DNA of 44,431 bases from a bacterium (GTDB taxonomy: Bacteria; Patescibacteriota; Microgenomatia; UBA1406; GWC2-37-13): assembly GCA_021789865.1 (NCBI GenBank), contig JAJYIX010000003.1:1-44431 (forward strand). Direction: 5' to 3'. This document shows positions 25,303-44,395 of this stretch, piece by piece. The notes beneath the pieces were generated by a model. It was not told the DNA's origin. It made no database searches and saw only the letters and a program-made list of their open reading frames with translations. Made by a program: the position numbers and the translations under genes. Every line of letters starts with the position of its first letter. Positions within the stretch are counted from its first letter, which is position 1.

Positions 25303-25850
25303 TCAATTACTTATTGGTACCGAGTCCGAAACCGGACGTATGATTGCAAATTCCGGTTGAGGTAAATTACCGTTCGCGTATGCAAATTTTGGAGCCGCTT
25401 CTTTGGCAACCATAGGTACCAATTGATCCATGGATGTTATCGTCCTTATCTGCGAGACTCCGTCTCCATTGGCGTTTGTATCGAAGATTATGAGCTCCGG
25501 ATTGTGATTTTGATCATAACCACTGTAAAGCACATAAAGGATATGGCCCGGATCATTATGAGAAGGAGTATCCAGCCACCGGAATCGTAAAACCATCGTG
25601 TCCCCCGACTGGACCTGCTGGATTTGGTTCACATATTCATAAAGAAGATTGTGTCCCACACTAGCTTGCTGTGTCAAACCATTTACCACAAGAGGATCAC
25701 CTATGCCGTGATGCCTGCTGGCGTTGGCCAAAGGAGCTATAAAATCAATCGCTTGCCCTTTACCCAGGCCCTGCATATCCGGAACTCCGACATTCGCATT
25801 AAATAAGATTTTATTTATGAGTACAAACCCGTTGACGCATTGCTTGGTGT
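25303..25850 (-). other. CHAP/NlpC-P60-like domain at the C-terminus of the giant PBP
   Basis: KQCVNGFVLINKI (Cys), VQSGDTMVLRF (PGDxVVF-like), DPGHILYVLYSG (GHVAIV-like), LIIFDTNANGDG. Confidence 0.55.
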
Positions 25851-28800
25851 TGTTAAACTCGGCTATTGCACTTGACAAATTATCGGTATTTATTCCCATC
25901 GCTTTTAACTGAGCAGTAAAATCAGCTGCATTTGCTGAGGATTTGGAAGCCTGGACAACATCGATGGCCGCTTTTATCAAAGTCGCGTTGGCTTTTGTCG
26001 CATTATAAAGGTTTGGATGTTTCACAATATCCTGTAAAAATGAAATGACTCTATCCGATGAAAATACCGCTTCACTACTCGCAGGCGTTGCCGATAGAAC
26101 ATCCACGGGCGTGAAATTGTTGGCGGCAGCTGTCTGATGTTCATTCAACCCAAGAAGAGCCAAAACCCTATAATCGGTATTAGATTGTACTTTCTGGAGC
26201 TGTGAAATCATGTCCGCAGCACGAGCGGCGCTAGCAGAATCAAGCGGAATACCATGGTTAATTTTGTCCTGCAAATAAGTAAAATCACTGTAAGCTGCCC
26301 AAATATTTGGGGCAAACAGCTTGGCTTTTTCCGGATTATTCATTAGATTATCGAACTGCTGGATTAAGAATAATCTTTCCGAACTACCCTGCACCATCGA
26401 CTGGGAAGAGTGGGCATCGACAAATATTCTTAGAAGGTCATATGTTTGATTAGAAACGCCGTTACTATACAAAAATTGGTCAAGACCCGAACCAAATTGC
26501 GCTTGGTCTGCCGCGGGCATCTGGGCGATTCCGACATCGAACATTTTTTCCAAAGACATAAAGTTTCGTTCTGCCGCCAACTGATCAAGAACTGTGTGGG
26601 AATCTGCTGTCAGGTGTCCATAGGTCGGATCATACGGGTTACCCGTATAAAGCTTTAAAAGATCGGCGTTGACGAAGACTGTCTTCTGCGGATCAAAACC
26701 CATTTCTTTCATTATCTTTGCCGCGTCTTCTGGCCCCATAAGTAAAAAGTTGTTTTTTTTCATCTGCTCGTGCAAAGTAAAAAGTAATGGCGAAGTCTCG
26801 GAAGCGCTTATGGGAACAATGTTTACCCCCTGAGATTGCAAATTAGCCAAAAGTCCGGCGTATTTTGCCGGATCGGATTTACTCGCTTCGGCAAGCATGG
26901 AATAGATGACTTTCTGGGCACTGTTGTCATAAAACTGAGCAACATCGCCGGCATTGATATGGGTGATAAAGCCGGCAGGTACGTCAAAAGAAATAAGATT
27001 GTTTTGTCCGGCGGCATTGGTGACATGAAGGGCAACCGTCTGGACATCAGTCGCACCGTTACTATGGACAGGTCCGACCAAGTCGACAAAAAGCGAAGAG
27101 GTATGGCCGCGCATGATCGAATCGCTCAACTCAGCGTATCGGCCAGGCGCAAAATCCTTGACATACGGGAAAAGTTCGTTCACCGATACGGCTCCAAGAC
27201 CATAACTTCCGCCCCCACCCATGTATACGGTATTAAGGGCCTGCATGACGAGATCCGATGATGAGCTCGAGCCCATAGCCCGTATCATCTCCGCTTGAAT
27301 TGGCAGTGCTTCTTCACTACCCCATGTCAATTCGACCGGATTGCCGTTGACATCACGCCCTCCGGCATAGACTAGGAAAGCAATCACTTTACCGGTCTCC
27401 GGGTCAAGTTTGGCGCCGAAAGTCGCCACCCTTCCGGCTATCCACTGACCGTTTGGCCCCATCATCGACTGGGTCCCCGTCTTGGTAAAGCCGTTGTCCA
27501 TGGTAATATCCTTGATATTATTCAAAGACCAAATATCTATTCCTGTCGGGCCTTGTTTGTATGCGGTATTATGGAGGGCGTCAAATATATATTTGGCAGC
27601 GGCGACCTGCTTCGGATCGCCTTGACCTTTTAAAGCCAAAACTCCTAAATCATAGTAAAAATGCGCCATCTGGACAAGCCCGCTGTCGGTCGGCTTGGCG
27701 CCGCCGACATAAATATTCCCATATCCGGCATCGACCGTCGGAATGTGATCCATCGGGACATAATTCCCGCCTTTAACTTCGTAAAAATATATCCCGAATT
27801 GATGGGCAAAATTCTGGAAATCAGCCCAGGCTTTCGGGTCCTGTCCTATCAAACGATTCCAAAGCTCGGCCATCGGTACGTTGGCTGAAGCAGCCAAGGC
27901 ATAATTGACTGTGTGCGGACCGGCCATGTCGGTAATCGTGGTTGAGTTTGAAACCGCTATACCGCCAACTGTAGTTGGCGCAAAATTAAGCTTTGGATCA
28001 AAACCGGTCTTCGGATCAATATCTGGCTGCATGTATTCTGGATGATGCGTGAGAGCCCAAAGGGTAAAAAGCGGTTTGAAAGTCGATCCGAAAAGCTGCG
28101 GATGCTTGGATAGTTCGTTGGTCGGGTCGACGACGACGGCATTGTAATCACCGCTATACTCGACCATAGCCATCCCGGGGACGGTAACAGCACCGGCATG
28201 CCAGGCTGGAACTTGAATCGGCCCTTCGGGAGTATTGATCGTATAGAAATTCCCGTGAAGAGTGCCCTCGGCAAAAGCCCCTGCATAAAATAGATCGATA
28301 AGGCCTTGGGCTTGCTTGTCGGCTGGAAGCGGCGCCGGGAAAATTACCTGCGACGGGATAATCTTATTTTCAGGAGTCGCCGCGGCATCTTTTAAAGTGA
28401 TTAAAATCCCGTCGGCAATTTTTGTGACGGATTTGACATTGCCTGCTTTTACCTGCTCTTGAAGTTGGCTGCCGGTCAGCCCTTCAACTCCAATCGTCTG
28501 GGGGGTGGAAACATTTTGCACTTCTTTTGGAAGTTCCAGTCCCCCGGTAAAGACTTTTCCCCATACTTTTGGATCCTGATTGGTTTTGGTATCTGCTGTC
28601 ATCTGACTTTGCATGTTCAGAAGATCGTGCAAAATACGAGCCCTATCCGAATTATTACCAACGATAGAGTCGAGCTTCCCCCCAATTTTAGGACTTTGTA
28701 TATTTGCCAAAGCATGATCTAGGGCTCGTTGAGGATCTGCAACATATTGACCATTTTGATAGTCAAAAAGATACCCCATCGGTGATTGTCCTAAACTGAT

Positions 28801-31800
28801 TATCAGATATTGCTGCCCGGCATTCAGGCTCTCCCAGGATTTTCCGAACAATACCTGGGAAATCGCCCCGGCTCCTCTGATGTCTATACCGTTGACGGTA
28901 CTTCCGTAAAAATTTTTAATATATGTTTCATCGATAGTGTTTTGTCCAAAATTCTTGTCCAATTGCGTAGCGGCAATATAATTTTCCATTTTGAAACAAA
29001 GCATGTCTATCAATTGTTTGATCTTGGAGTGTGATTCGTTGTATTTTTCGGGTTGAAGATTCATGGTCGGTGCCATCCGCGCCGCCAGCTCGTTCGGGAT
29101 CCTTCCACGGACATCGGCCATGACAAGTTTTATTAGATAGTCAACTCCGTATTTACTGTAATTATGAAACATCGATTCTTTATTGGCGGATGGAATATTC
29201 GGATCAAGAAGCATGTGGGCCGAGCCTTCGGTCAGCCAGCCAAAAAGAGTGACCGCCGGCGTCGATCCTCCGGACAGCGGCCCTTTACCCAAAATATTAC
29301 GATAAATCAAAGTTGGGAAAAGTACCTTCGGATCGTTTTGGGATTCCTGTCCCTCTATGGACTGAAGCATGGCGACATTCAGAGGAGATATTTGAGCGTC
29401 AGTGTAAAAATTGGGATGATATACGCCGACGATATTGCCGTTTTGCATGATAAACTGCGTTTGGCCGAATTTCGTTTGGACAAGTTGATTCAAGTCGGCA
29501 ACCTGGTGGGTCAAGGCATAAGAATAGGCAAATTGAGGATCGGTAAAAAGGGTCGGATCAATGTTTAATTTCAATATCGAATCGGAATTAAGGACAGGTC
29601 CATTTACAGGCGCCATACCCATTTGGAGCATGAAAGGCTTTATCTTGGAAAGCATTTCCGAATGGGCAAGGGCTTGGTCCTGAGGAATATTGATAAGGAT
29701 ATTGTCGTAGATTCCGGCTCCATTTGCAGCATTAAACATTTGTTCGGGGTTTATATTAGGGTTGCGTGCCGACTCCCTCAGTAAAAGCTGATACAATTCG
29801 TTGTACGAAGCGGCATCGCCGTTTTTGGCTTGATTTATCAGATCAACCAGATGCCCCGTCTGTTCAAAAGAAGGAAAACTGCTGAAGATCTTGTATATGA
29901 GAGAGTCATGAGAAAGATTGGGGCTGTTTTGAATGTCACTCATGGACAAAGGTCCCGTCGGATTGACAAAACCATTCATGCTACTATTGGAATCCGCTAA
30001 AAAAGCCGCAAAGTGGTGATTGACAGCTTGCTCCAAAGTCGTATTGTCTGTCTGAAAGATTGTATGAAATTGCATCAGAAAAAGCTTATCCCAGTTTCGC
30101 TGAGCCGCCGGTAGCTTATCAACAAATCCGGCAACAACATCTCCGACGACTGCCAAAGTTTGCCGGTGGCCATCGGACGTCGTGACGTCAAAAGGCGCCG
30201 AAACTGCGGACGAAACAGCCTCTTTCTGCTGATCGGCTGTCAGATTAAAAAGGGAAAGCTGATCGGCAAGATTCATCGGGGGAAGCTTAAGTTTTCCTGC
30301 CAAATCAGCATTATTTATACTGATTAAAGCAGCCAGATGATGATCTTTGACGGCCGTTTCCATGAAAAGCTGAGGATTGTTTTTCAAAAAATATTCGACC
30401 AGCGGAGTCAAGTCTTTATGATCTGTTCCGTTCATGGCCGCGGCCAACCCGGCCAGTGAGTCCTGACCTTCCTTGAAGGTCGAAAGATCGTATATCACTC
30501 TCATCAGATCGGCGGAGCTAAAATTACCAAGCGATTTTTGGAATTGCAGGAGTTGCGCTCCGGTCAAACCATTGTAGGATGCATTGTTTGAAACCAAAAT
30601 CTGTCCTGCACCATTATTCGTATCGCTATTAATAAGTATTATCAGATTGTTCAATTCGTAGAATCTGGCCGCTACTTCGTTGGCCGCGGATGCATGGTCA
30701 CTGCTGTTGAATTGGTAGACTTCGGTCGAAGGTGCTTGAAGAGCTTGGATCATTGTCTCGGGCCTACGGGTATCACTTCCGAAAATCGCATTCATAGGCT
30801 CGTGTAAGGCCGGCGAGTTGGCCGCCAGATAACTGAGGCCGGTGAAGGCGACTTTATAACCCAAAGACGCTATTATGTATTTACGCCTCCTCAACCAGAC
30901 TTTTGCCCTCATCGACTTCACGTCGGTATCAACTCTTTGGAGAACGTCGAGCATATCTTGATAATCCTGTCTTGGCATATTTGCTTGTGCGTAATGCAAA
31001 AGTTCTGCTCTCATATTGTCTATATCTTTCAAGGCCTGTTTATTGTCGAGGAGTTCTGATTTCCCATTTTGAGTTCTGATTTTTCTTCGTCCGTAAAAAG
31101 TAGGATTATGGATAATATAAGTCGCCTGTTCATCTTTTAGCCAGTTTAAAAACTTTGCCAAATGGATAAGCTCCAGGTCCGTCATCGATATTTTCGGATT
31201 ATCCTTGGCAACCAAAAATTTTCTAAGCAGCATCAGCTTGTCTACCGACCCTTCTTCGGTACCGGTCATTTGTTGGAATGTCAGGGATTTCCAGGATCTC
31301 TTTTCCAAGTTTTTAGCAGCCTTCGCTCCCAACCTAATTAGACCCCCCTTCAAGCCTTTTCTTTGCGAGCTTCCCAAAGCTTCGGAAAGCTGGGAAAAAG
31401 GATTGACAGGTACGTCGAAATTTTTTCCCATGAGCATCTCCACCCCGCGATCCAGAGTACTTTTGTTAAATCTGAAATTGATCATCGTATCGACACCCAT
31501 TCTGCCGCCGGCTCCGCTTATGACAGCGTATGCGGCCGTATTGGCCGCCATCATCATCGCCGGTACGGCCGAAGGATCCATGATCCCAGGTGCATGGGCG
31601 CCCAAAAACTGGAAAATCCCGTTGATCCCCAAAGCAGTTATGTAATAACTGCCCATACTTAATCCGTATTTAATTTTGTTGTGCCACAGCGATTTCGTCA
31701 GTTCTCCCTTGTTCTTCCAAGCGCTTTCGGCCCGGTATAGGAATTTCTCCTTGGCCAAATATCCGGCCAGATGTTTTGTCGACTCAGGAAACTTCCTCCA

Positions 31801-33777
31801 TTCGAATTTGCTTCGGGTAGCATGCCTTTGACGCGCCTTGATTTCCTTCATGAGAGCGCTTGCTTCCTTATATCCGCCATACAAAACCATCCAAGCCATA
31901 AATTCTAAACCGCGGTTAACCGGGCCTTCCAAAAAGTAGTTAACGGCATGCCCTCCTAAAGCGGTCAGAAGAGTTGAAATAACAATTGCTTTGGTTTCAC
32001 TCCCGGGAGTAGATTCGGCCATGAAAGGGCTTTCTCCCTCAGGGTAGAACATTGCTTTTTGTGAGGCATTTCTTACTTTCGTTCCTGCAGAATCGGCATA
32101 TTTCAGTAATTTTTGTTTAAATCTTTCCAGATGAGATGTCTTTTCAAAAGCTTTTTCGACTCTTTCTTTCACCTTGGGATCGTTTTTTATCTCACCTTCT
32201 GATAGGAATTTGAAGGAATTTTCTTCTTTCGCAATATGTTCATTTAAAGTGTTTGAGGCTTTCTTGTCTTCCGAAGCCTTTTCCCGGGCGGTATCCTTGA
32301 TAAGATCTCCAAGGGTGACGCCTAGTCCGAATCCGTCGATATTTTTTTGATTTGTAAAATCCGTAAGAACAGATGGATCACGAAGGAGCAAGTCCCGGAA
32401 CATAAGCTTAAAGTCGGCAAAATTCACCGCTCTTATGGCAAAATCTCCTTGCTGGTTTTCAATATCGAAAAGGTCTTTATTCCAAGCTTCTCCTTTAAAA
32501 ATGCGTTGGTAATCGCTTTGCATCTTAGGACCAAGATAACCTTTGAAAGCCATATACGCTACGTCTGCATAATAATCTTTGAAGTTGGCCGTCATGAATT
32601 CGGCCAAGGTCTCGCCGGCAAGTTTTCTTGCCGATGCAAGGTAATTTTCTGCGTTATTCTTCACTTCGGAAGGCGCCAAGGTTCCAAATCCAAGTTCACC
32701 CCGGACGCTAAAAAGCATACCCTGGGATATCAGATCCAAACCGTGAAAAGCTTCCAAAAACTCTGAATCCTGCGGCAATCCCATCTCCTCCATCGTCTCA
32801 AAGCTTCGGCCTTTGACAGTCTTTTTCGGAGTTAAAGACTTTTCGACAACGCTTCTTGTTGTTGAATTATCGTTTATTCCGGAATTAAGTTTCGTGAACC
32901 AATATCTTTCTCCTTTAAATCTTTTTTCCTTGGCTTCATATGACAGAAAATTATCCAAGGATGGTTTGTCTTTCCTGGCTGCGGCGCGAACTTCTGCAAG
33001 GGTGGTTACGGCTTCCTGGCCGACTTGAAAAAGCCCGGCCAGTCCAGGCCCTTCTTCATACATAAAACGAAAGTCATTGAAGTAGCTTCCTAAAAAATTC
33101 TCCGGATAGGCATTGGCAAGATATTCAAATTTATCCTTCCAACTTTGAATATTTTCAACTTCCTGAGCCATCAGACTATGACCGCGTAGATATCTTTGAA
33201 GAACAAGTATTTCTTGTTTTGACTTCTCCGGGTCACCGAAGTTCTCGCGGCTCTTTTTTCCCAGCCCGATAAGGGTTGATCTGTAGGCTGTCTTATACTC
33301 ATCCGTTTTAAGGAGCTCGGAAAAATCTCCTTCTTCGATTTTTTGTTTTGCTGGCGTATCAAGTAGGCGGTACTCTTCAAAAAAGATTCCCGCCGATAGA
33401 GTGTCGACGAATGTTCCTGATCGGCTCTTAAACACCTGCTCGTTATGCTTGCGGACATACCCGCTGAATTCAATTTCTTCCTCTCTTCTTCTCATTTCAA
33501 CAAGAGGAGTTGCGTATCTTTTATGTCGGGCTTTGGCTTTTCGTCTTATTTCAAGCTCTTTTTCTGTTTTTTCTTGATTTAAATTTTTTCCTTCGAACAA
33601 ATCATTGATAAGCTTTTTCTGGTGCTCGTTTTCGATCAATTTCCTGTCAATAAAATAACGTCCGAATTTTTTTCTCTCAAGAAGACTACGATTGTTTGAC
33701 TCTGGCTTTAATTTTGGTGGCTCTTTATGAGGCTGAACCGGCAAGACAGCCTCGCTTGCGCCGGGGTGATCGACCAT
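25303..33777 (-). CDS. Giant (2824 aa) membrane protein: divergent class A penicillin-binding protein with CHAP-like C-terminus
   Basis: About 590 aa cytosolic N-terminus, about 5 TM helices, GT51-like motifs, transpeptidase STFK/SAN/KTGT, C-terminal Cys/His domain. Confidence 0.8.
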   Translation of the reverse strand: MVDHPGASEAVLPVQPHKEPPKLKPESNNRSLLERKKFGRYFIDRKLIENEHQKKLINDLFEGKNLNQEKTEKELEIRRKAKARHKRYATPLVEMRRREEEIEFSGYVRKHNEQVFKSRSGTFVDTLSAGIFFEEYRLLDTPAKQKIEEGDFSELLKTDEYKTAYRSTLIGLGKKSRENFGDPEKSKQEILVLQRYLRGHSLMAQEVENIQSWKDKFEYLANAYPENFLGSYFNDFRFMYEEGPGLAGLFQVGQEAVTTLAEVRAAARKDKPSLDNFLSYEAKEKRFKGERYWFTKLNSGINDNSTTRSVVEKSLTPKKTVKGRSFETMEEMGLPQDSEFLEAFHGLDLISQGMLFSVRGELGFGTLAPSEVKNNAENYLASARKLAGETLAEFMTANFKDYYADVAYMAFKGYLGPKMQSDYQRIFKGEAWNKDLFDIENQQGDFAIRAVNFADFKLMFRDLLLRDPSVLTDFTNQKNIDGFGLGVTLGDLIKDTAREKASEDKKASNTLNEHIAKEENSFKFLSEGEIKNDPKVKERVEKAFEKTSHLERFKQKLLKYADSAGTKVRNASQKAMFYPEGESPFMAESTPGSETKAIVISTLLTALGGHAVNYFLEGPVNRGLEFMAWMVLYGGYKEASALMKEIKARQRHATRSKFEWRKFPESTKHLAGYLAKEKFLYRAESAWKNKGELTKSLWHNKIKYGLSMGSYYITALGINGIFQFLGAHAPGIMDPSAVPAMMMAANTAAYAVISGAGGRMGVDTMINFRFNKSTLDRGVEMLMGKNFDVPVNPFSQLSEALGSSQRKGLKGGLIRLGAKAAKNLEKRSWKSLTFQQMTGTEEGSVDKLMLLRKFLVAKDNPKISMTDLELIHLAKFLNWLKDEQATYIIHNPTFYGRRKIRTQNGKSELLDNKQALKDIDNMRAELLHYAQANMPRQDYQDMLDVLQRVDTDVKSMRAKVWLRRRKYIIASLGYKVAFTGLSYLAANSPALHEPMNAIFGSDTRRPETMIQALQAPSTEVYQFNSSDHASAANEVAARFYELNNLIILINSDTNNGAGQILVSNNASYNGLTGAQLLQFQKSLGNFSSADLMRVIYDLSTFKEGQDSLAGLAAAMNGTDHKDLTPLVEYFLKNNPQLFMETAVKDHHLAALISINNADLAGKLKLPPMNLADQLSLFNLTADQQKEAVSSAVSAPFDVTTSDGHRQTLAVVGDVVAGFVDKLPAAQRNWDKLFLMQFHTIFQTDNTTLEQAVNHHFAAFLADSNSSMNGFVNPTGPLSMSDIQNSPNLSHDSLIYKIFSSFPSFEQTGHLVDLINQAKNGDAASYNELYQLLLRESARNPNINPEQMFNAANGAGIYDNILINIPQDQALAHSEMLSKIKPFMLQMGMAPVNGPVLNSDSILKLNIDPTLFTDPQFAYSYALTHQVADLNQLVQTKFGQTQFIMQNGNIVGVYHPNFYTDAQISPLNVAMLQSIEGQESQNDPKVLFPTLIYRNILGKGPLSGGSTPAVTLFGWLTEGSAHMLLDPNIPSANKESMFHNYSKYGVDYLIKLVMADVRGRIPNELAARMAPTMNLQPEKYNESHSKIKQLIDMLCFKMENYIAATQLDKNFGQNTIDETYIKNFYGSTVNGIDIRGAGAISQVLFGKSWESLNAGQQYLIISLGQSPMGYLFDYQNGQYVADPQRALDHALANIQSPKIGGKLDSIVGNNSDRARILHDLLNMQSQMTADTKTNQDPKVWGKVFTGGLELPKEVQNVSTPQTIGVEGLTGSQLQEQVKAGNVKSVTKIADGILITLKDAAATPENKIIPSQVIFPAPLPADKQAQGLIDLFYAGAFAEGTLHGNFYTINTPEGPIQVPAWHAGAVTVPGMAMVEYSGDYNAVVVDPTNELSKHPQLFGSTFKPLFTLWALTHHPEYMQPDIDPKTGFDPKLNFAPTTVGGIAVSNSTTITDMAGPHTVNYALAASANVPMAELWNRLIGQDPKAWADFQNFAHQFGIYFYEVKGGNYVPMDHIPTVDAGYGNIYVGGAKPTDSGLVQMAHFYYDLGVLALKGQGDPKQVAAAKYIFDALHNTAYKQGPTGIDIWSLNNIKDITMDNGFTKTGTQSMMGPNGQWIAGRVATFGAKLDPETGKVIAFLVYAGGRDVNGNPVELTWGSEEALPIQAEMIRAMGSSSSSDLVMQALNTVYMGGGGSYGLGAVSVNELFPYVKDFAPGRYAELSDSIMRGHTSSLFVDLVGPVHSNGATDVQTVALHVTNAAGQNNLISFDVPAGFITHINAGDVAQFYDNSAQKVIYSMLAEASKSDPAKYAGLLANLQSQGVNIVPISASETSPLLFTLHEQMKKNNFLLMGPEDAAKIMKEMGFDPQKTVFVNADLLKLYTGNPYDPTYGHLTADSHTVLDQLAAERNFMSLEKMFDVGIAQMPAADQAQFGSGLDQFLYSNGVSNQTYDLLRIFVDAHSSQSMVQGSSERLFLIQQFDNLMNNPEKAKLFAPNIWAAYSDFTYLQDKINHGIPLDSASAARAADMISQLQKVQSNTDYRVLALLGLNEHQTAAANNFTPVDVLSATPASSEAVFSSDRVISFLQDIVKHPNLYNATKANATLIKAAIDVVQASKSSANAADFTAQLKAMGINTDNLSSAIAEFNNTKQCVNGFVLINKILFNANVGVPDMQGLGKGQAIDFIAPLANASRHHGIGDPLVVNGLTQQASVGHNLLYEYVNQIQQVQSGDTMVLRFRWLDTPSHNDPGHILYVLYSGYDQNHNPELIIFDTNANGDGVSQIRTITSMDQLVPMVAKEAAPKFAYANGNLPQPEFAIIRPVSDSVPISN
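27250..28330 (-). other. Penicillin-binding transpeptidase domain
   Basis: FGSTFKPLFTLWAL (SxxK), AASANVPMAELW (SxN), GFTKTGTQSMMG (KTGT), in correct order and spacing. Confidence 0.85.
28800..29400 (-). other. Divergent GT51 (glycosyltransferase) domain
   Basis: SIEGQESQNDP (EDxxFxxH-like), SGGSTPAVTLF (GGSTITQQL-like), YIKNFYGSTVNGIDIRGAGAISQVLFGKSWESLNAGQQYLIISLGQSPMGY (YLNxxYFGxxAxGIxxAAxxYFGKxxxxLxxxExAxLAxLxxxPxxY). Confidence 0.7.
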
Positions 33778-33796: not shown

Positions 33797-34198
33797 TCAA
33801 ATCTCCTCGGAGGCTATTTTTCGCATTTGAAGAATGATAGAAGCGTCAAGCTTTGGTTCGAGCTTGGTTATAAAGTCGTTTAATATTGACGAATAAGCAA
33901 TATTGAAGACCTGCCGAGAGTTAAATCCGGTTTCTTGTAACTTTTCTTCCATCGTCTTTAAAAACTTTTCGACTTCTTCGGGTTTTGTTGGAAGTTTTGT
34001 CGAAAGTTCATTTATCCATTGCTTGTTTTTTTTATCCTTGGCGATGAGTTCCATTAATTTCAAATCAATACTTTTCATTAAATTCCCTTTTACTGCTTCT
34101 GATTCTTCTCCTAAATCAAGAAACCTTACAATACTCCCGATTTTTTTACCAAGTATATCTTCCATATTATTTTTTCTTCCTCTGATGATAATTTTCAA
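33797..34198 (-). CDS. Small helical protein, unknown (possibly DUF5663-like)
   Basis: In the giant operon; start probably at the internal MEDILGKK. C-terminus 'KLDASIILQMRKIA' resembles 'INLSLILQLKEKI' of the 24799 ORF. Confidence 0.6.
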   Translation of the reverse strand: MKIIIRGRKNNMEDILGKKIGSIVRFLDLGEESEAVKGNLMKSIDLKLMELIAKDKKNKQWINELSTKLPTKPEEVEKFLKTMEEKLQETGFNSRQVFNIAYSSILNDFITKLEPKLDASIILQMRKIASEEI

Positions 34199-35141
34199 CT
34201 GATTGGATGATAGTATTTCTACCAGGGACTAAAGCAGTCATCCCTATCGCCATGCCCGCTTCGGCATATATCAATCCAGCGGTATGAAACGCTTCTATCG
34301 GTGATGAGTGAGCTAAAAGTCCTAATGCAATAGTTTGCGCCGCTACTGCAGCCACACCGAGAGTCAGAGCTAGATCTGACATAGGCACATCTTTCCATTT
34401 AGGAAATATGTCGAAAGCTTTCCGGAAATTATCGCGTGCCGATGATAATACATCTTTCGAGGCTGTTAGGACTTCCCCAGCCTTTTGCTTTACCTCATAT
34501 GTCCTTATTCTGTCAAGAAGTTTCTGAAGACTGTCCTGACCGTTCACAACTATCGCCTCGGTCTTATGTTTTACTTGCAATAATACGGGTTCCGTCTTTT
34601 TTCCCGTCACTTCTTTGACAATTTCCTTAATAATTGGTTTGAGTGGCGTCTGCAATCTATTGGCATTGTGATCGCCTACTCCTTCATACTCGTCAAATTG
34701 GCACAACAAGTCAACTTGTTGATAGAAATCTTCCGGAAGTTTGACTATTCCGTTTTTTAAAGCCGTCTTCAGGTCGGAACCAATGGCGAATTGCCTAAAC
34801 GACGGATCATCGGGATAAAATCCTTGCAAAGCCCATAAAAGGACGTCCGGACGATTTTCTCCTATAAGTTTTGACATTACATCACGTGCCTTTTTGAATT
34901 CGGGGCTTTTTGAATTTAGATTAGAAGACAAAAGGAGCAGATCGGTACGGGTGAGATAATTACTTCTTCGTGCATCAGGATTGGCATACTGAAGCAATCC
35001 CGGGTCGACTCCGTCTTGTTCAGCTTGCCATGTGCCGGTTTTTCTAGCTCTTCTTTCAAAAAGTCCGTCAATTTTAGAACTAAGCTTTTCCGCGATTGCG
35101 AGAGGTGGTCTATCGGCCGGGACAGCTACTTGTTCTATCAT
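34167..35141 (-). CDS. Membrane-anchored protein sharing an N-terminal domain with the 1335-aa ORF
   Basis: RTDLLLLSSNLNSKSPEFKKARDVMSKLIGENRPDVLLWALQGFYP... matches the 1335-aa protein. About 2 C-terminal TM helices. ATGA overlap with the upstream gene. Confidence 0.75.
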   Translation of the reverse strand: MIEQVAVPADRPPLAIAEKLSSKIDGLFERRARKTGTWQAEQDGVDPGLLQYANPDARRSNYLTRTDLLLLSSNLNSKSPEFKKARDVMSKLIGENRPDVLLWALQGFYPDDPSFRQFAIGSDLKTALKNGIVKLPEDFYQQVDLLCQFDEYEGVGDHNANRLQTPLKPIIKEIVKEVTGKKTEPVLLQVKHKTEAIVVNGQDSLQKLLDRIRTYEVKQKAGEVLTASKDVLSSARDNFRKAFDIFPKWKDVPMSDLALTLGVAAVAAQTIALGLLAHSSPIEAFHTAGLIYAEAGMAIGMTALVPGRNTIIQSVENYHQRKKK

Positions 35142-38100
35142 AGTACTGATCTACCTCCCTTGGCTGGCCCTGAGGAAGGTGTGTCTGTATCATGTGCAAT
35201 TTTTTCATCAGCAAGAATTGCTTCATGAATCGTGATCAAATCATTATAATCTTCAAGAATAAATTTATAGTTAGGAAGTTTTTTTACTAACTCATTTTTC
35301 AAGTCTCCCAATGCAAATTTAAGATAAAGTTTTGTTGTCTTTTTAACATCAACATCTTCAAATACAATATAATTAAAGAGTTCATTTTGCAGCCTTTGTA
35401 AGTGATTAGTTGGACTATCTCTTAAATATGATTTAATATGGTCCAACACAGGTAATTCTGCGAGCGGAATTCCCAATGCTTCTTCGATCAACCGGTCTAC
35501 ATATTTTGCCAAAAATACCTCGGACAACATGATCTCTGGCTCTTCATGCCCTCTTACTCTAGCATTTTCTTCTTTATAATCCATAATTAGTTTTGAGACA
35601 TCAAATTCTTTTTCCAATTTCTGTTGGATTTTCCGTACCGGAGATTCGCTGTCTTCAGCTTTGGTTTTTTCCTTGAAGTCCTCATTATTTTCTCTAAATA
35701 CAATTACCTGTCCTGGAATATAACCCCCGTCGTTATCCCCAACACTTATACGATTAAAATCCCGTACATTTTGCAATACTTTTATTCGAACTCCCAAAGA
35801 CAGATGATTAAATAGTTCGTAGAGTTCTTGCTCTGTGGTCGGTACCTTCACCTGAATTTCATGTTCTTTCAACGCTTGCATGATATTACCCGATTGTGCT
35901 TTTAATATTTTATTGACTTCTTTAGAATGCCAGGCACTTCTGCCAAGATCATATTTTATGGCATCCATTAGCGTCATACGATCGCCGATCGATTCTATTC
36001 CGAGAACATGCTCAAGTAAAAAGCTACTCATTCGTTCGAATCTCTTTGTGTAATCAAGTTCCATAAAATCACCATTCTTATACTCCTGATAGATTTTTAT
36101 TAAATTGTCACCTGCCAATATATCACCTAATTTGATGGCCTCACCCGGTTTTATTTCTTTTACTGGAGAAGCGAATATTTCTTCCTCTTCGCGGTTAATA
36201 AGTTTATATTTTCCTTCCCTGAGAACCACTTCCCATCCTTTTTGTTTATATATCGAATACAAAGAACTAAATGTGCTTCTATCAGAGGCTTCATAGAGAG
36301 CTTTAAGATAATCTTGATTCGTATTTACTAGCATGTGGATATTATCTCCTGCCGCATCCGGTACCATGGACCGAGCGATATTATATACTAGTTCTTCACT
36401 AGGTCCATCGACCATCAAGCCTCCTTCAACTTTTGGGTCGTAATGTTTCGAAAGTAAAATTAAATCCAAGCGTCGTCTATTGTATTCGTCAGCAATTTTC
36501 GATACTCTTCCGTCAATCAAGTAATCCAATAATATTCCTGCCTGACCTGGGTGTTTTTGGACCTGAGACACAGCATAATCCCACATCGCAAATGTTAAAG
36601 GAAAGCGATTTTCGGAAGAAATATTGTTGGTTTCAATAATCATTTGACCTCGTAGCGAGGTGCTAAAGTGGGAGATTGTCTTAGTTTCATTTTTTGTCCC
36701 TGCATCAACTTCCATAACGCCCGGAACGGAATTATGCAGCATCATATTCTCTAGGTCGTGTCTCAACGATGCCGGATTAGGGCTAATCATGAGCTTTTCG
36801 AAACCGTCGAGATAGGCAGAAACAGCTTCTCTATTGGTCACTATCACATCGTGTTCTCGATCTCCGGTCGGGCCCAAGTTTCTCCTGTCCGGAAGGTTCT
36901 TTTTATTTCTAAAGACATTTTTTAACTGATCAAGATTAGTCACTTTTTCTGTTTTTGATTCCGGAAGATTGGCGTTTGAAGAGACTCCTGCCAGCTCGTA
37001 ATTTTTTTTGTCTGTTTCCCGGACATAAAAACCAGCTCTGAGAAGGTGAGCGTCCCATCTTTTGTATTTTTCGTCTTTTTTCTGATATATTTTTTTCAAA
37101 AATAGTTGCGAATCCGGTGTATTTACGACAGGAGAAAGATCTTTTAGTATTTCCTTGGCGGCTGCTTCGTTCATGCCCATATATTCGCCGAACGTGTATT
37201 TCAAAAGTGCTGAGTTTACGTGATTCATTAAAAGATCCCTCTCTCCTTTTTCCTGTTTATCAGGTCTTATCGTGCTGTCGCCATATGCGATCGGCATGAG
37301 CTGAAAAATCTTTGAATACAGCATCTTTTCTCGATCGCTGGCTTTTCCGGGTTCTCTCATCATCCGTTCCCGCTTATCGAGGCCGTGGAATCTGACTACC
37401 TCGTATAAATAACTTATGGCCATATTCCTTATTTGCTGCTGACCTTTGAATCTGGGAGTTATTTTTTCTTTGGCGATAAGATAGTTGGCTATGGCAAAAA
37501 CGGCATTTTCTTCCGGAGGTATATCTATGAAGTTCAGTCTCGATAAGCCTCCGTAAATGGCATCCGTGGCTAGTGGTTCCTTAGTAAAAAAATTCATTGA
37601 CTTCTCTTGCGTCATCCCCGGATTGGAAAAGCGGATCAGATTTTCTGTCAATTCGTTTATCTTTTTTTCATCCATCCTATCTTTAAGCGATTTTTTGAGA
37701 TCCTCCAGCGCTTTTTTAGTCTCGGCATTTTCATATCCATTTTCTGTCTGATCTTTAATGCTTTTATCTTCGACTATCAATCCTCTGGTGACTAAGGACT
37801 TTCGGACATCATAAAAAAAGTCTGCTTTTCCGTCTTTAGGCTTCCTGGCCCTAACCAATCTTTCTGCGAAGCGCTTTCCGTTGGGAGTGGAAAAAATTTC
37901 CGCGAGGTCGTCGGCAGACATTCCCTGAATGTCTTCTGAAAATTGGCTCCCAATTTGTCCATCAAACCTTTTAAGGTTGGATTTCGCGTCAGGGCCAGTT
38001 ACTATGCCGCCAGACCTTTCTCTATACGCCAAAGAAAGTTCCAGACACTTGGATAAAACCGTTTTTTTATCCTCTGCTTGTAAGCCGCCAAAAAATACCG

Positions 38101-39145
38101 GATCGGTAAATACGTCTGTCATGTACAAAACAGCTACTTTGACTGCTTTGTTATTGTGGTCTGTGGTACTTAATCTGGCAAGGAGGTAATCGGACATGGC
38201 AAGCATGGCGGCAGGATTTTTTGGGTCATATTTATAATTATTGATCAATTTATCCTGGTCAATTCCATGTAACTCGGAAGCGAAAAAGTTTTCTCTTGCT
38301 TCCAGATAGTTATACCCATACTTATCAAAAAATTTATCCAATTTTTCGACAATATCGTCTGCTTGAGACTTACTATCGCCCGTCACCTTTTTGTACTCTT
38401 CTATTAGCCTATTCCTGGAGTCAACATAACCTGGTGGTTTTTCTTCGGCGATCGCTTTCAAAGTGGTTCTGTCAGGTGACGATCCCGCATCACCGGAAGC
38501 AGCTTTTTTAATTCTTTTTAAAAGAAGTTCCGTTTGTCCACTTTTCTTTTTTTTGGCAGCAGACTCGGCAACTTCTTTTTTCACGACATCGACAACTTCG
38601 GATACAATCGGCAAGAGAATGGTTTGATTCCTGCCTGGTTCATCCGGATCTTCTACACCTTCAAACTGGTCAAATTGCATCAGTATGTTTCCCACCCTTT
38701 CTCCAAAATCCTTAGGCATACTGACCAATTTTTTTTCTAATTCATCGGCTAGTTCACGTCCTTTAGTGTATTTATCAAATGGCGGTCCGGGATAGAATCC
38801 TTTCAAGAGCCATAAAGTGAGATCCGGACGTATTTGTTTTTCAAGAAAAAGTTCACTCATGAGCTGTTTTGCTCTTTGGAATTCAGGAGTCTTTGGCTTA
38901 AAACCTTTGGCAAGCAGGAGCAGTTCCGTCCTTGAGCAGCCTTCATCTTTCATCCTTGCTTCTTTAGTAACCTTATCCACTAAATAAGCGTATTCTCCAC
39001 CTTTAAGTCTTTCTGAGCAAAATTTTTTATCGATCTCCCAATTGTTTGGCTGGCGATTTTCCTTGCCAAACCGTTTAAAAAAAGCTTCATTACTCAAAGG
39101 CGCATTTTTCGCATTTGCTGTAAGCGCTGATTCTGACTGTATCAT
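35138..39145 (-). CDS. 1335-aa cytosolic, mostly helical protein with three module copies
   Basis: Long ORF, no TM, in a tight operon; internal repeats shared with the 1748-aa ORF. Confidence 0.85.
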   Translation of the reverse strand: MIQSESALTANAKNAPLSNEAFFKRFGKENRQPNNWEIDKKFCSERLKGGEYAYLVDKVTKEARMKDEGCSRTELLLLAKGFKPKTPEFQRAKQLMSELFLEKQIRPDLTLWLLKGFYPGPPFDKYTKGRELADELEKKLVSMPKDFGERVGNILMQFDQFEGVEDPDEPGRNQTILLPIVSEVVDVVKKEVAESAAKKKKSGQTELLLKRIKKAASGDAGSSPDRTTLKAIAEEKPPGYVDSRNRLIEEYKKVTGDSKSQADDIVEKLDKFFDKYGYNYLEARENFFASELHGIDQDKLINNYKYDPKNPAAMLAMSDYLLARLSTTDHNNKAVKVAVLYMTDVFTDPVFFGGLQAEDKKTVLSKCLELSLAYRERSGGIVTGPDAKSNLKRFDGQIGSQFSEDIQGMSADDLAEIFSTPNGKRFAERLVRARKPKDGKADFFYDVRKSLVTRGLIVEDKSIKDQTENGYENAETKKALEDLKKSLKDRMDEKKINELTENLIRFSNPGMTQEKSMNFFTKEPLATDAIYGGLSRLNFIDIPPEENAVFAIANYLIAKEKITPRFKGQQQIRNMAISYLYEVVRFHGLDKRERMMREPGKASDREKMLYSKIFQLMPIAYGDSTIRPDKQEKGERDLLMNHVNSALLKYTFGEYMGMNEAAAKEILKDLSPVVNTPDSQLFLKKIYQKKDEKYKRWDAHLLRAGFYVRETDKKNYELAGVSSNANLPESKTEKVTNLDQLKNVFRNKKNLPDRRNLGPTGDREHDVIVTNREAVSAYLDGFEKLMISPNPASLRHDLENMMLHNSVPGVMEVDAGTKNETKTISHFSTSLRGQMIIETNNISSENRFPLTFAMWDYAVSQVQKHPGQAGILLDYLIDGRVSKIADEYNRRRLDLILLSKHYDPKVEGGLMVDGPSEELVYNIARSMVPDAAGDNIHMLVNTNQDYLKALYEASDRSTFSSLYSIYKQKGWEVVLREGKYKLINREEEEIFASPVKEIKPGEAIKLGDILAGDNLIKIYQEYKNGDFMELDYTKRFERMSSFLLEHVLGIESIGDRMTLMDAIKYDLGRSAWHSKEVNKILKAQSGNIMQALKEHEIQVKVPTTEQELYELFNHLSLGVRIKVLQNVRDFNRISVGDNDGGYIPGQVIVFRENNEDFKEKTKAEDSESPVRKIQQKLEKEFDVSKLIMDYKEENARVRGHEEPEIMLSEVFLAKYVDRLIEEALGIPLAELPVLDHIKSYLRDSPTNHLQRLQNELFNYIVFEDVDVKKTTKLYLKFALGDLKNELVKKLPNYKFILEDYNDLITIHEAILADEKIAHDTDTPSSGPAKGGRSVL

Positions 39146-39148
39146 ATA

Positions 39149-42100
39149 TTAGTCGTCTAATACACTTTTCATTTTATGCGGTTTTTCTGTCAGTGTTGAT
39201 TCTGTTTCTCGTACAGGAGGAGGGGCGGCTCCAAGAGGAGCGGCTTTTGGAGGAGGCTCTTCTTCTTCCCATTCAGGAACGACTTCTTCTTCGCGGTGTG
39301 TCGATATCGTTGATTCTGCGGCGGCGGGTGCGGGAGATTGAGGCTGTTGTTGTACTTTTTGTTGGGCTGGTTGAGTCGCCGGTGCGGGTGCCGGAGCTTG
39401 TGCTGTAGCCGAAACTGATGTGGCTGGCGGAGTAGCCGCTGGTGGAGCTTGAGTTGTGGTTGGAAGAGGTGTTGGAGACGCCGTAGTTGCCGGTGCCGAA
39501 GTGGCGGGTGTGGCTGTGGAAGAAGCTGCAGTTCTCCGATTTCTAAGAAATTTTGGAATATCATCATTCGGATTCACTGAAGTATCTTGTTCGTTAGCAC
39601 CTTGTCCAGATTCTCCTTTTAACCAATACAAAACATTGTCCGCCGAGCTTGAATCTGATACCGATCCTGCAGGCTGGGTACTAGCGGTCGATGTCAACCG
39701 ATCCGGAAGGTTTGGTTCTTCTGGCCCTGAATCCTGTTTTTGGACTGAGGTATCAGTCGCAGCGGCTGGAGCAGGAGTGGAAGTTGGTGGCTGTGTCGGA
39801 ATAGAAGCACGAACTTCTTCGGGTGGGTTTTCCGGAAATTTAATTTTTAAGACAGCTTCAAGAATCTGTATAGCATCATTTAGTGCCTCATTTATTCTAA
39901 AATTCACGATGTCATCCTTATTCCTTAATTGATCAACTGTTTCCCTTACATCATCAGGGATATCCGCTCCTGCCTTAACTGCATCGTCAAAATAGTACAG
40001 AGCTTCCACGGTCGATGCGACAATATCTGCTGGTCTGTGGCTTTGTAGTCTCGATTCCAGTAAGTCAACGGTCGTTTTTCTATCATCTACATCTAGCGGT
40101 TTACGCTCTCTTATTTTGTCGTGAAGATCGCGAAGATCTAATTCGCTAGCATGCTTTCTTAGATTCGGCTTATATTCTTCCCTTTTAACTAAACGATATG
40201 TGCCTAGACCTTCTACTATTACATATCCTTTTTTGGCTGCTGTTTCGATAAAACCTTTTAGACTGTCATCTTCATTAGCTTTTTCTGAAAGCATTTTCAA
40301 AAATTCATTTCCTGATTTGGAATTAAGTACGGGCAAGATATCTGTCTCAAAATTTACCGCTGAATTTCCCTCGAGTATAATTGTTTCTAATGAGTTCATG
40401 ATGGAGCTTTTTATCACTTCTGTCTCACCTGGTTCAAACGCCAGCGGGATCATTTGCAAATGACGGGCTAATATCTGTTGGAAGTCTCCTTTATCTTTGA
40501 ACCTATCAGGGCGGAAATATCTCCCATTTTCATCATAATCATTTAAGTGTCCATAAGTTAGATCGGAGATCAGTCGCTCGACGTCCGGATTCCTAGTCCT
40601 TTTCGCGAGTCCAATCAGGTAGTCGTACATGTGAACGATTTCTTGCTGTCCGGCAAGAGCCGGATCGATAGTCGAATGGATTAATACACTTAGCAAATAT
40701 TCGTTCGTTTCTAAAAATTTATTTGCTGCATCTCTTACCTCACCCGGATCCGTCGACGACAAGGCGATCAAAGAATTCATTAGTCTATCTCCTCTTTGGT
40801 CCCCATTTAAATGCGGATTCGTCACGAATTCTTTAAAGGGGTCAAGATGTGCTCTTTCATCCAATACAATTCTTCTGTTTATCCTGAAAGAACTATCTGA
40901 AGAACTTTCTGATGATGTAGATTTATCGCCGATTTTTACGATTCTATAGACTTTACCATCTTTCTCAATAGCGTAGTTCCTTTTTGCTCCGAATCCTTCC
41001 TCGAATAAGTATCTTATCACCGTATCCGGATTGGTGGAAAGTTTTTGCGATTCGTCGTAGATCATCTGCAGGACGTGCTGAGCATGAGAATCATTTTCAT
41101 TATTCAAAATCCCAAGATAATCGGGATGGAAATCTCCTTTATTGTCTTGAAGTTTTCCGTAGAAATCTTTGATTTCGACTCTGTCATTATTTGACAGCTG
41201 ATAGTTGTCTCTTTCTCCATGAATGTCGATTAATCGAATCTGCTCTTCCAGCATAGCCGGACCTGTTTTGTATCCCAAAGTCCGCTTAAAAAGCTGATAA
41301 GCCATGTCTTTGATCCTTTTATTTTCCGGCTCGCTCGTGGCTTTTGCGTAAAAGTAATCAAAAAAGGCTAACGCTGCCTCTCCTCCATCTACTTGTCCAT
41401 AATCCATGACATCATAAAAATATGCCCCGACTGGTCTTCCTTCTTCCCCTCCTGGTAGTTTATCGAAGAATTCGGATGCTTCTGTGTCATTTAGGGCTCT
41501 GCGTTTATCTATAATCATGTCATCAAAATTTTTCAAGAAAGCTTCTACCTCCTCTTCAGTATTAAATATTTGCCCTCCTTCGACTTTCCAATTCAATTTT
41601 TTGAAGGCTTCGACTATTTTTTCTTTCGCTATGTCGCGGGCCTCCCCTATTTTTAATTCTCTATCTTGGCTGAATTTAAAAGGGTTTTTGATGAGATCTA
41701 ATTCATTTTTGGTAATAAGATCAAATTTGTCGTCAGAAAAACGAGTCAAAAATAATTCATCTTTCCTATCTTCCGCTGGTAAATTCGTACTTTCGAATAT
41801 TTCTTCAGCGGGCTTATTGTTTTCTTTTAGTATTGAAATTTTCAGAGTTGAGCGTTCTCCCAATCTAAAAGCTGTTTTTGAGTTTACAAAGTCCTGGACA
41901 ACCTCATTCGAACTTAAGAGTAGATTAAGCGTCGAATCTACGTCGATTGTCTCGATAGCATTGTCGGCCAATATGGTAAATTCGCCATTCCGGACGACGA
42001 GAGCACCTATCGTGCTTCCTTCAAAATTTAAATTAAAGTGCCTTTCCGGATCTTTGGATTCCAACTCCAGACGATCTATGTAGACTCCTTCTATAGCTTT

Positions 42101-44395
42101 ATTGAGCCCTAGATCATTTGATTCCGTTGCATTCAATTCTAGATTAAGATGGCCTATAACTAATGTTAAATTGGGATATATCTCTTTTATCTGTCTCAGA
42201 GTATCAAGATCGTCGATCGAGGTCAGATTCATATCATCAACCGTGAATTCAATACGTGTTTTTAATTTTCCTTGTTCGTCGGAAATTTGATTAACGCGTA
42301 CGTCTTCGCCTATTTTTTTTATAAAATCATCAGCATCTTTTACGTCTTTCAGGCCAAGTATGCCCCCTATTTTTACCGCCAGTTCATTCTTTTTTTCCGG
42401 AGTCATGCCGTGCTCCGGTGCTGTACCGCCACCTGATGATCCGCCGTGATTTTCCCCGCTTGAAGTCGGAGGATGTGTCGTCGACGTGGCTGGCGGGACT
42501 GCTTTTTGGTGCATTACCGCTTCCGCCTTATGATATTCCTCATCGCTTAACTCTCCACCTCTTAAGGCGACAATATGTTCGTTGCCATGTCGATCTCTTA
42601 CTAGTTTAAAATTGGCCTTTCCTTTCATATCAGGAGACTTGTATCTGTCTACCTCATCAATCCGCCCTGATTTACCTCTTCTGTACAATAATTCCATTCC
42701 CTTAATACCTTCATCCATGTGAGTCGTGAATCCTATGTCTGTTGGTCTAACGACATTGCCAAATTTCTTCTTCGTAGACAAGGTCAATTGCTGCTCAAGT
42801 GCCATTTGAGTTGAAAACCCTTCTCTGATAATTCTCAAAACTGATTCTCGTTTGTCACCCGATAATTTATTGAGTAGATTCGATTTTTCGATCAATTTGT
42901 CTTTTGCATGTGGATCATGGTTTTTATTCGAGTAGTCAATGGCAACGTCAAGAGCTAAGCCAAACAAATTCATAATGGCATCTTCTATTCTTTTGGACTT
43001 TGCATCATGAGTTTCATTTGGATTAGAAGGGATCAGATTTTCTGACTCTAATAACTCGGCGGTTTTTATCACATTCATCGTTGTCAGATTCAATCCTGCA
43101 AGGCCATCCTTTCTTTTGGACAACTTAGCTATTTGTTCTGCGACTATTTTTCTATCTTCGGCAATCTCGCGAATTTCATCGGGTGTAAAGACATTGAGAT
43201 TTTCTGATTCCGCCGCGATTGATTCGATTTTTGAACCCTTAGGAAAGGCTCTTTCGACCTGATAATGTTTAAGTATGGCCATTCTCCAAACTTGTTTTTG
43301 CCTTGATAATTTTTCGTTTAATTCCGCTCTTTTTTTATAATCTTGTGTCTGTTCTGCAGTTATCTGGTCTTTTTTCATTTGCAATCTGACTGGAGCAGGG
43401 ACAAGAATTTCAAAAGCCTGAGCCATGGCTATATCCAACATTACGGAATATTCCATTTCGGATTTATTCTCAGTCATCGCATGCATCGTGCCTTGCAGCT
43501 CTCTTGCGGCTGATGAATGTTTTGATGAATCACCTACATTATGAGCTACTTGAAGTCTTTGAAGTAAATTATCGAGAGCGGTTCGCTCGCCTTTATATCG
43601 CTGCGGTCTTGTGAGCTCATATGCTTCTTCCTTTAATTTTGCGTCAACAGCTTTACGACAAGCGATATTCAAGGCTTGAAAAATCGATTTATCGGTAAAA
43701 AGTTGTGTCGAAGCTTTACTATCTATGACAACATCTCCAGCGTTTTTTAATTTTTGATACCCTGCGGTAATTCTATCAATTAACAGTTTTTTTACCCCTC
43801 CATCTTCGCTTTGATGGGAATTATCAACATTCACAACTTTCGAGTAAATCATGAGCATTAGATTTTCCCGCTGTATAGCTGTTAAATTTTCAGGGATTAC
43901 CAGCTTTCCTCTCTCAATTCTAAGAAACGAATAAGGATGGATCATTGCTGGCTTTCCATCTTTATCTAAGATAATTTTTCTTTCTTTATTTTCATCAAGA
44001 CCTATATCCGGAAATTCTTCGTCAATATCGTCTTGTGTTATAAACCCTTCTTTTGTAGCAAGCTGAGCTAAATCTTTGACATTTTTCAATAAAAAATCAG
44101 AAAGCGACAAAGACTCTTCCTTTTTTTTATTCTTTCCTTCTTTATGGGATACTTTGATTTGATGGGCTTCATCAAATTCATGTATTTCATCCCAATCGGA
44201 TGCTGGTGTGATACTTATTTCTCCATTGCCTGATGCTCTTTGAATTCGATATTTCCCATGAGTTGGTTTTGTCTCATCATCCACCCACCTACCCTCGGAA
44301 TCTTGTTTTTTTTCGAATTTTGGAGGGATGAGAATATGTTCCGCGAGGGTTGGCGGACGCGGTGGTCTTAGTCCTTCTGCAGCTGGTTCTTGCAT
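39149..44395 (-). CDS. 1748-aa repeat protein with beta-solenoid-like segment and Pro/Thr/Ala-rich C-terminal tail
   Basis: Long ORF, no TM or signal peptide; two module copies; PTA-rich tail then an acidic stretch EEEVVPEWEEEEPPP. Confidence 0.85.
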   Translation of the reverse strand: MQEPAAEGLRPPRPPTLAEHILIPPKFEKKQDSEGRWVDDETKPTHGKYRIQRASGNGEISITPASDWDEIHEFDEAHQIKVSHKEGKNKKKEESLSLSDFLLKNVKDLAQLATKEGFITQDDIDEEFPDIGLDENKERKIILDKDGKPAMIHPYSFLRIERGKLVIPENLTAIQRENLMLMIYSKVVNVDNSHQSEDGGVKKLLIDRITAGYQKLKNAGDVVIDSKASTQLFTDKSIFQALNIACRKAVDAKLKEEAYELTRPQRYKGERTALDNLLQRLQVAHNVGDSSKHSSAARELQGTMHAMTENKSEMEYSVMLDIAMAQAFEILVPAPVRLQMKKDQITAEQTQDYKKRAELNEKLSRQKQVWRMAILKHYQVERAFPKGSKIESIAAESENLNVFTPDEIREIAEDRKIVAEQIAKLSKRKDGLAGLNLTTMNVIKTAELLESENLIPSNPNETHDAKSKRIEDAIMNLFGLALDVAIDYSNKNHDPHAKDKLIEKSNLLNKLSGDKRESVLRIIREGFSTQMALEQQLTLSTKKKFGNVVRPTDIGFTTHMDEGIKGMELLYRRGKSGRIDEVDRYKSPDMKGKANFKLVRDRHGNEHIVALRGGELSDEEYHKAEAVMHQKAVPPATSTTHPPTSSGENHGGSSGGGTAPEHGMTPEKKNELAVKIGGILGLKDVKDADDFIKKIGEDVRVNQISDEQGKLKTRIEFTVDDMNLTSIDDLDTLRQIKEIYPNLTLVIGHLNLELNATESNDLGLNKAIEGVYIDRLELESKDPERHFNLNFEGSTIGALVVRNGEFTILADNAIETIDVDSTLNLLLSSNEVVQDFVNSKTAFRLGERSTLKISILKENNKPAEEIFESTNLPAEDRKDELFLTRFSDDKFDLITKNELDLIKNPFKFSQDRELKIGEARDIAKEKIVEAFKKLNWKVEGGQIFNTEEEVEAFLKNFDDMIIDKRRALNDTEASEFFDKLPGGEEGRPVGAYFYDVMDYGQVDGGEAALAFFDYFYAKATSEPENKRIKDMAYQLFKRTLGYKTGPAMLEEQIRLIDIHGERDNYQLSNNDRVEIKDFYGKLQDNKGDFHPDYLGILNNENDSHAQHVLQMIYDESQKLSTNPDTVIRYLFEEGFGAKRNYAIEKDGKVYRIVKIGDKSTSSESSSDSSFRINRRIVLDERAHLDPFKEFVTNPHLNGDQRGDRLMNSLIALSSTDPGEVRDAANKFLETNEYLLSVLIHSTIDPALAGQQEIVHMYDYLIGLAKRTRNPDVERLISDLTYGHLNDYDENGRYFRPDRFKDKGDFQQILARHLQMIPLAFEPGETEVIKSSIMNSLETIILEGNSAVNFETDILPVLNSKSGNEFLKMLSEKANEDDSLKGFIETAAKKGYVIVEGLGTYRLVKREEYKPNLRKHASELDLRDLHDKIRERKPLDVDDRKTTVDLLESRLQSHRPADIVASTVEALYYFDDAVKAGADIPDDVRETVDQLRNKDDIVNFRINEALNDAIQILEAVLKIKFPENPPEEVRASIPTQPPTSTPAPAAATDTSVQKQDSGPEEPNLPDRLTSTASTQPAGSVSDSSSADNVLYWLKGESGQGANEQDTSVNPNDDIPKFLRNRRTAASSTATPATSAPATTASPTPLPTTTQAPPAATPPATSVSATAQAPAPAPATQPAQQKVQQQPQSPAPAAAESTISTHREEEVVPEWEEEEPPPKAAPLGAAPPPVRETESTLTEKPHKMKSVLDD

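Follow-up and report, generated by a model that had tools for sequence, protein, structure and literature searches.

The window analysed here is one entire contig (G000:C5; 44,431 bases) of a 1.07-Mb draft genome of a Microgenomates bacterium (the source genome, G000). On its minus strand, five consecutive genes (p1748, p1335, p324, p133 and p2824) run as an operon from 44395 to 25303, with overlaps or gaps of less than 20 bases. The two largest upstream products, p1748 and p1335, share a repeated helical module; p1748 carries in its tail a near copy of the C-terminal peptide of the division protein FtsZ; and p2824, by its domains and motifs, appears to be a giant class A penicillin-binding protein (PBP). 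With moderate confidence, we propose that p1748 and p1335 make up a lineage-specific cytoplasmic scaffold, which, through a mimic of the FtsZ tail, binds to FtsA and brings in or controls the giant PBP at the divisome. The original prediction, made from the DNA letters, pointed to the module; it offered no function and included neither the FtsZ-tail motif, nor a further domain common to p1335 and p324, nor the PBP identity of the downstream gene, which encodes 2824 amino acids (aa). We consider the context of the module, namely the FtsZ-tail copy and the giant PBP, a stronger find than the module itself.

The C-terminal peptide of FtsZ is a hub where many division proteins meet. FtsZ of the source genome ends in FDIPAFLRKK, and its open reading frame (ORF) matches FtsZ_C at 1.7e-20. 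The motif of p1748 (Table 1) satisfies the core D-[I/V]-P-x-F-[L/I]-[R/K] together with basic residues, and like the FtsZ peptide it sits in a region that is disordered, as judged by composition. The setting differs from FtsZ: the scaffold protein that carries the motif is unrelated, the motif lies inside the tail, and a congener has up to three copies. In Pfam, p1748 has no FtsZ or tubulin match, so it is without a tubulin-type GTPase domain. The module protein of this same-genus congener (G013) contains DIPTFLRNR, DIPTFLRDR and DIPDWLRNE in a similar context. In a genome of another family of the same order (G062), a 1416-aa protein adjoining the giant PBP, G062_1416, contains SDIPGFLKGR. Outside the tail motif, hhalign showed no homology between p1748 and G062_1416, and a module-end match at the N-terminus of the latter (E about 0.07) is suggestive only. 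A bactofilin-like or beta-helix region common to p1748, G062_1416, G035_372 and G043_1041, which had been suspected by eye, was unsupported by hhalign.

A pattern search of the source genome returned four matches, including the p1748 motif and the FtsZ end; the other two are a 13-codon frame antisense to a larger ORF and a match with a different residue order. At the DNA level, the pattern D-I-P-x-F-L-R/S occurs 29 times in 20 genomes of the genus, and in 20 cases the match is the C-terminus of FtsZ, nine residues before the stop. The other nine fall in two module proteins (three matches), a 12-aa FtsZ-like fragment (one), a 317-aa ORF (one) and ORFs of 66 aa or less (four). The reversed control pattern gives two matches in these genomes. 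In terms of density, some 17 Mb hold about one sizeable ORF that is unrelated, against three matches in the 2,737 residues of the module proteins. Because the motif was picked after p1748 had been seen, its specificity has no clean p-value, but the two matches of the congener and the counterpart in G062 are independent of the choice. A 12-codon fragment, NSFDIPAFLRKK, on another contig of congener G015 (L102, G015:C31:2604-2623), is apparently a stray end of an FtsZ tail.

In Escherichia coli, subdomain 2B of FtsA binds the FtsZ peptide KEPDYLDIPAFLRKQAD (PMC9098913). FtsZ with such a tail is encoded in six of the six genomes examined, and so is FtsA, whereas SepF was detected in none of the six. 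Because of this distribution, FtsA would be the likeliest receptor of the p1748 motif.

The giant PBP p2824 starts with an N-terminal part of about 600 aa, followed by several hydrophobic segments between aa 598 and 986, and then by GT51-like and transpeptidase domains. Its Pfam Transgly match (E 5.9e-6) reaches 26.3 bits, just under the cut-off of 27. In GT51 motif 1, the Glu is retained as IEGQ and the adjacent Asp is lost. The transpeptidase motifs SxxK, SxN and KTG appear in order as STFK, SAN and KTG, and all five giant homologues have the three motifs in the same order. The homologues of 2501 and 1548 aa give clear GT51 matches in Pfam, and those of G035 and G043 match both Transgly and Transpeptidase; the Pfam Transpeptidase match is found only in homologues, just under its cut-off. 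On these sequence grounds, p2824 is most probably a class A PBP. It resembles the PBP1a/1c type in having GT51-like and transpeptidase domains and the three motifs. It differs in its length (2824 aa versus about 850 aa), in the large part preceding the hydrophobic segments, in a strongly diverged GT51 domain and in an extra C-terminal domain. A C-terminal CHAP/NlpC-like hydrolase, prompted by Cys and His motifs, was unsupported by Pfam and is not claimed. By eye, the N-terminal part (p2824 aa 1–600 and the G035 and G062 homologues) resembles a tandem pair of helical repeats.

PBP-like matches of the ordinary size, about 850 aa, occur in 384 of 385 genomes of the class. Giant forms are rare: G000, G043, G062 and G243 have them among the 385, G035 has one elsewhere, and a fragment is present in G013. 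Homologues of the small protein p153 adjoin the giant PBP in G000, G035, G043 and G062, conserved across families (L011:12229-12720, L012:128-577, L019:18916-19380). Weaker p153-type matches exist in G079 and G361, and no Pfam family reached significance for p153. In G243 (L055:2033-13733), only the transpeptidase motifs are retained in the giant 2582-aa protein, and separate neighbouring genes encode an Amidase_2 protein (592 aa, 1.6e-12) and GT51 (723 aa, Pfam 9.5e-43), an arrangement that we read as a split version of the giant PBP. In G062 (L020:12214-17082), the giant PBP has as a neighbour a 1622-aa protein whose C-terminal domain is a PP2C phosphatase, a possible hint of regulation by phosphorylation.

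The original prediction placed at least five copies of an unnamed helical module in two proteins encoded at 35138–44395. The two ORFs are there on the minus strand, and the approximate copy positions were right within about 30 bases; the limits in Table 1 were set in this analysis and are slightly different. A sixth copy is found in the congener G013, in a 989-aa ORF that is open at the contig end. In profile searches, each whole protein, when held out, ranks first against 858 unrelated ORFs of these genomes and is matched at the expected positions, with E-values of 0.0015 for p1335, 0.034 for p1748 and 0.0012 for the congener protein. Among 3000 shuffles for each protein, none scores as well as p1335 or p1748, and one scores as well as the congener protein. 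The shuffled controls do not keep helical periodicity, and the real-ORF control, with E-values of 0.001 to 0.03, is better on that score.

When single copies were left out in turn, with E-values calculated for 20 sequences, three stood firm individually, namely copy 2 of p1335, copy B of p1748 and the congener copy (1.5e-4). Copy 1 of p1335 is marginal. Copy A of p1748, recovered in part, and copy 3 of p1335 are the weakest and would rest mostly on the shared pattern (Table 1). A profile built from the C-terminal ends alone finds three copies significant and three not, and the latter three still align in register. The profile comparisons thus confirm that p1748 and p1335 share a repeated module, by remote homology, and the predicted count of five in the two proteins is probable.

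The module spans about 185–225 aa. At its start, a helix closing with an FF-type motif is followed by a helix pair with a central DYL-A-K, and then by a variable middle. Its end comprises an N-T/S motif, FLK-x-L-Y, a further helix closing with G-Y/W/F, and a short beta hairpin. An AlphaFold2 model built on the five window copies (pLDDT 70, pTM 0.76) shows helices within residues 2–228 and strands at 231–235 and 241–245. As predicted, the model is all helical save for the C-terminal beta hairpin, with a helical body and a winged-helix-like tip. The last 70 residues follow the order helix-helix-helix-strand-strand both in the full model and when modelled alone, which fits a winged helix as far as the models go. 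A fold search of the module against PDB and viral models gave ARM/HEAT-like proteins (importin beta, CNOT9) with a best E of 0.36 and a TM score of about 0.2, which is not significant, and we rejected an ARM/HEAT assignment on this ground.

The modules are without match in Pfam, NCBIfam, PADLOC, PHROGs and PDB sequences, in line with the prediction of an unnamed family, and, judged by the libraries searched, they appear to form a new domain family. In searches of 73 genomes of the family and 385 of the class, relatives were found in the congener G013 only. No further module relatives appeared for p1335 in 97 relatives and in phages, for p1335, p1748 and p2824 in viral contigs, or for p1748 in plasmids. 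A phage or defence origin was rejected, as there is no PHROG or PADLOC match and no relative in viral or phage collections. Within the genus, two genomes have both the modules and the p2824 family, and the other 18 have neither.

p1335 and p324 share a 115-aa domain, absent from the original prediction, with a likeness far stronger than that of the module repeats. Residues 71–185 of p1335 align with residues 64–175 of p324 (window 34617–34952) at 44% identity, with E about 1e-20 or better. As p324 ends in a hydrophobic hairpin, it could be a membrane-anchored partner.

Based on these features, we propose how the system may work. Neither p1748 nor p1335 has a hydrophobic segment of transmembrane strength at its N-terminus, and both are predicted to be cytoplasmic for this reason. 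They would act as scaffolds built of repeat modules and made from one operon with p2824. The disordered tail of p1748 would display the FtsZ peptide copy and dock onto an FtsZ-tail receptor, most likely FtsA. The helical modules may serve as rigid protein-binding spacers, joining this tail anchor to p1335, to the probably membrane-anchored p324 and to the N-terminal part of p2824. That large part is itself predicted to be cytoplasmic, where p1748 and p1335 could meet both it and FtsA. As a result, the giant synthase would be brought to the division site, or its action gated there.

Several observations weigh against this scaffold model. The p1748 motif is internal, 128 residues before the end, versus C-terminal in FtsZ, and it is preceded by an acidic residue, not by Leu or Phe. 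The proteins examined at the giant-PBP loci of G035, G043 and G243 contain no such motif, so it is not universal. In the congener, the p2824 homologue (L010:3159-5354) stops after the hydrophobic region, without the glycosyltransferase and transpeptidase half, and is either a truncated gene or a genuinely enzyme-free form; its gene and that of the module protein are convergent, not in one operon. The evidence comes from single draft genomes on short contigs. The missing enzymatic half in the congener weakens the link to the PBP, and the scaffold may not serve a PBP there. It also leaves room for the main rival, in which the FtsZ-tail copy is a competitor: p1748 would titrate FtsA or another FtsZ-tail receptor, delaying or blocking division, and the PBP would have a separate function. 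The motif and its specificity speak equally for this rival, and the presence of several copies in the protein of the congener would speak for avid competition. However, the shared operon with a PBP, and the recurrence of a giant PBP next to the order-level counterpart, argue for a coupling to wall synthesis over simple inhibition, and we regard the competitor as unlikely. Alternatively, the operon may be a surface or attachment system for contact with a host cell, the FtsZ-like motif being incidental. The patchy locus would suit this idea, as would the giant membrane proteins of Vampirococcus, a member of the candidate phyla radiation (CPR), for which a role in host attachment has been inferred (PMC8080830). 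The missing N-terminal segments of transmembrane strength in p1748 and p1335 and the specificity of the motif argue otherwise, and make such a system quite unlikely.

The module itself admits two further rivals. The winged-helix-like tips might bind nucleic acid, with p1335 and p1748 linking the chromosome to the division site like nucleoid-occlusion factors. The order of helices and strands in the tip fits a winged helix in both models, and many of the weak matches in a fold search of the tip are winged-helix domains. None of these matches is significant (best E 1.0), however, and winged helices can be protein-binding domains too; nucleic-acid binding thus seems very unlikely. Or the repeats may reflect a chance likeness between helical, charged segments. 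Self-comparison of single sequences, the check named in the original prediction, is only marginal: the best pair, copy 3 of p1335 and copy B of p1748, gives a BLAST E of 0.05 and an hhalign E of about 0.06. Two copies are poorly recovered when left out, and once the congener copy is removed from the training set, the cross-hits are no longer significant (p1335 at rank 4, p1748 at rank 3). Against this stand the three held-out tests with real ORFs and the same-genus protein, which was located via another gene and has the module too. Chance likeness is, in our judgement, highly improbable.

A divisome scaffold is a known kind of system, and it is the domain family that appears new. The most similar way of working is that of EzrA, a spectrin-like division regulator of Firmicutes. 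EzrA forms a cytoplasmic scaffold from helical domains repeated in a line (PMC4243239) and binds FtsA through a QNR motif (PMC12288466); for p1748, both properties are predicted only. Unlike EzrA, p1748 and p1335 have winged-helix-like tips and no N-terminal membrane helix, and p1748 has an FtsZ-type motif instead of QNR. No sequence match (Pfam, PDB) or significant fold match to EzrA was found. Staphylococcus aureus FtsZ and PBP4 both bind GpsB (PMC11062636), which shows by precedent that FtsZ and a PBP can have a division factor in common. The proteins there are different, and in our system it is the scaffold, not the PBP, that carries the FtsZ-like motif.

Table 1. Features of the operon and its surroundings, in window coordinates.
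Feature	Position	Strand	Remarks
p1748, putative scaffold protein: helical N-terminal part, middle region, two modules, disordered tail	39149..44395	-	1748-aa ORF
Module copy A of p1748 (aa 972-1158)	40922..41482	-	individually weak, E 0.035
Module copy B of p1748 (aa 1185-1408)	40172..40843	-	leave-one-out profile E 5e-7
Pro/Ala/Thr/Ser-rich tail of p1748 (aa 1506-1748, 243 aa)	39149..39880	-	disordered by composition only
FtsZ C-terminal-peptide-like motif DDIPKFLRNRR (p1748 aa 1611-1621)	39533..39565	-	pattern match
p1335, putative scaffold protein: p324-like domain, three modules, helical C-terminal part	35138..39145	-	1335-aa ORF
Domain of p1335 common with p324 (aa 71-185)	38591..38935	-	44% identity, E ~1e-20
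Module copy 1 of p1335 (aa 282-464)	37754..38302	-	E 0.004 when left out
Module copy 2 of p1335 (aa 517-721)	36983..37597	-	leave-one-out E 8e-10; first sequence in the AlphaFold2 model
Module copy 3 of p1335 (aa 774-988)	36182..36826	-	BLAST E 0.05 to copy B of p1748; not recovered when left out
p324: shared domain (aa 64-175) and C-terminal hydrophobic hairpin (aa 257-305)	34167..35141	-	probably membrane-anchored
p133: small helical protein, TTG start as listed, overlaps p324	33797..34198	-	without family match in Pfam
p2824: giant class A PBP	25303..33777	-	by domains, motifs and homologues
GT51-like domain of p2824 (aa 1458-1671)	28765..29406	-	Pfam Transgly 5.9e-6; homology to G035 and G043 domains
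Transpeptidase domain of p2824 (aa 1841-2171)	27265..28257	-	STFK, SAN, KTG motifs
p153: small conserved companion, convergent with p2824	24799..25260	+	homologues adjoin giant PBPs in G035, G043 and G062

A scan for promoters and terminators gave no more matches than expected by chance. At 16005–19350, the window also encodes secreted proteins in which cohesin-like and dockerin-like domains occur, a pairing of the cellulosome type in a CPR bacterium.

In a limited literature search, which did not cover subscription papers or preprints, we found no report of another protein of the same cell displaying copies of the FtsZ C-terminal peptide. More tentatively than for the scaffold itself, we suggest that a sporadic set of Microgenomates uses a new domain family to build cytoplasmic scaffolds that copy the FtsZ tail once or several times. 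By occupying FtsA, these would link a giant peptidoglycan synthase, made as a single polypeptide, to the ring, and tail mimicry would be the principle by which an accessory machine for wall synthesis is recruited. To our knowledge, the cell cycle of CPR bacteria is almost unknown. If the tail of p1748 does bind FtsA, division could be tuned by tail mimics and not by FtsZ itself, and the operon would be a CPR case of wall synthesis wired to the ring by a purpose-built scaffold.

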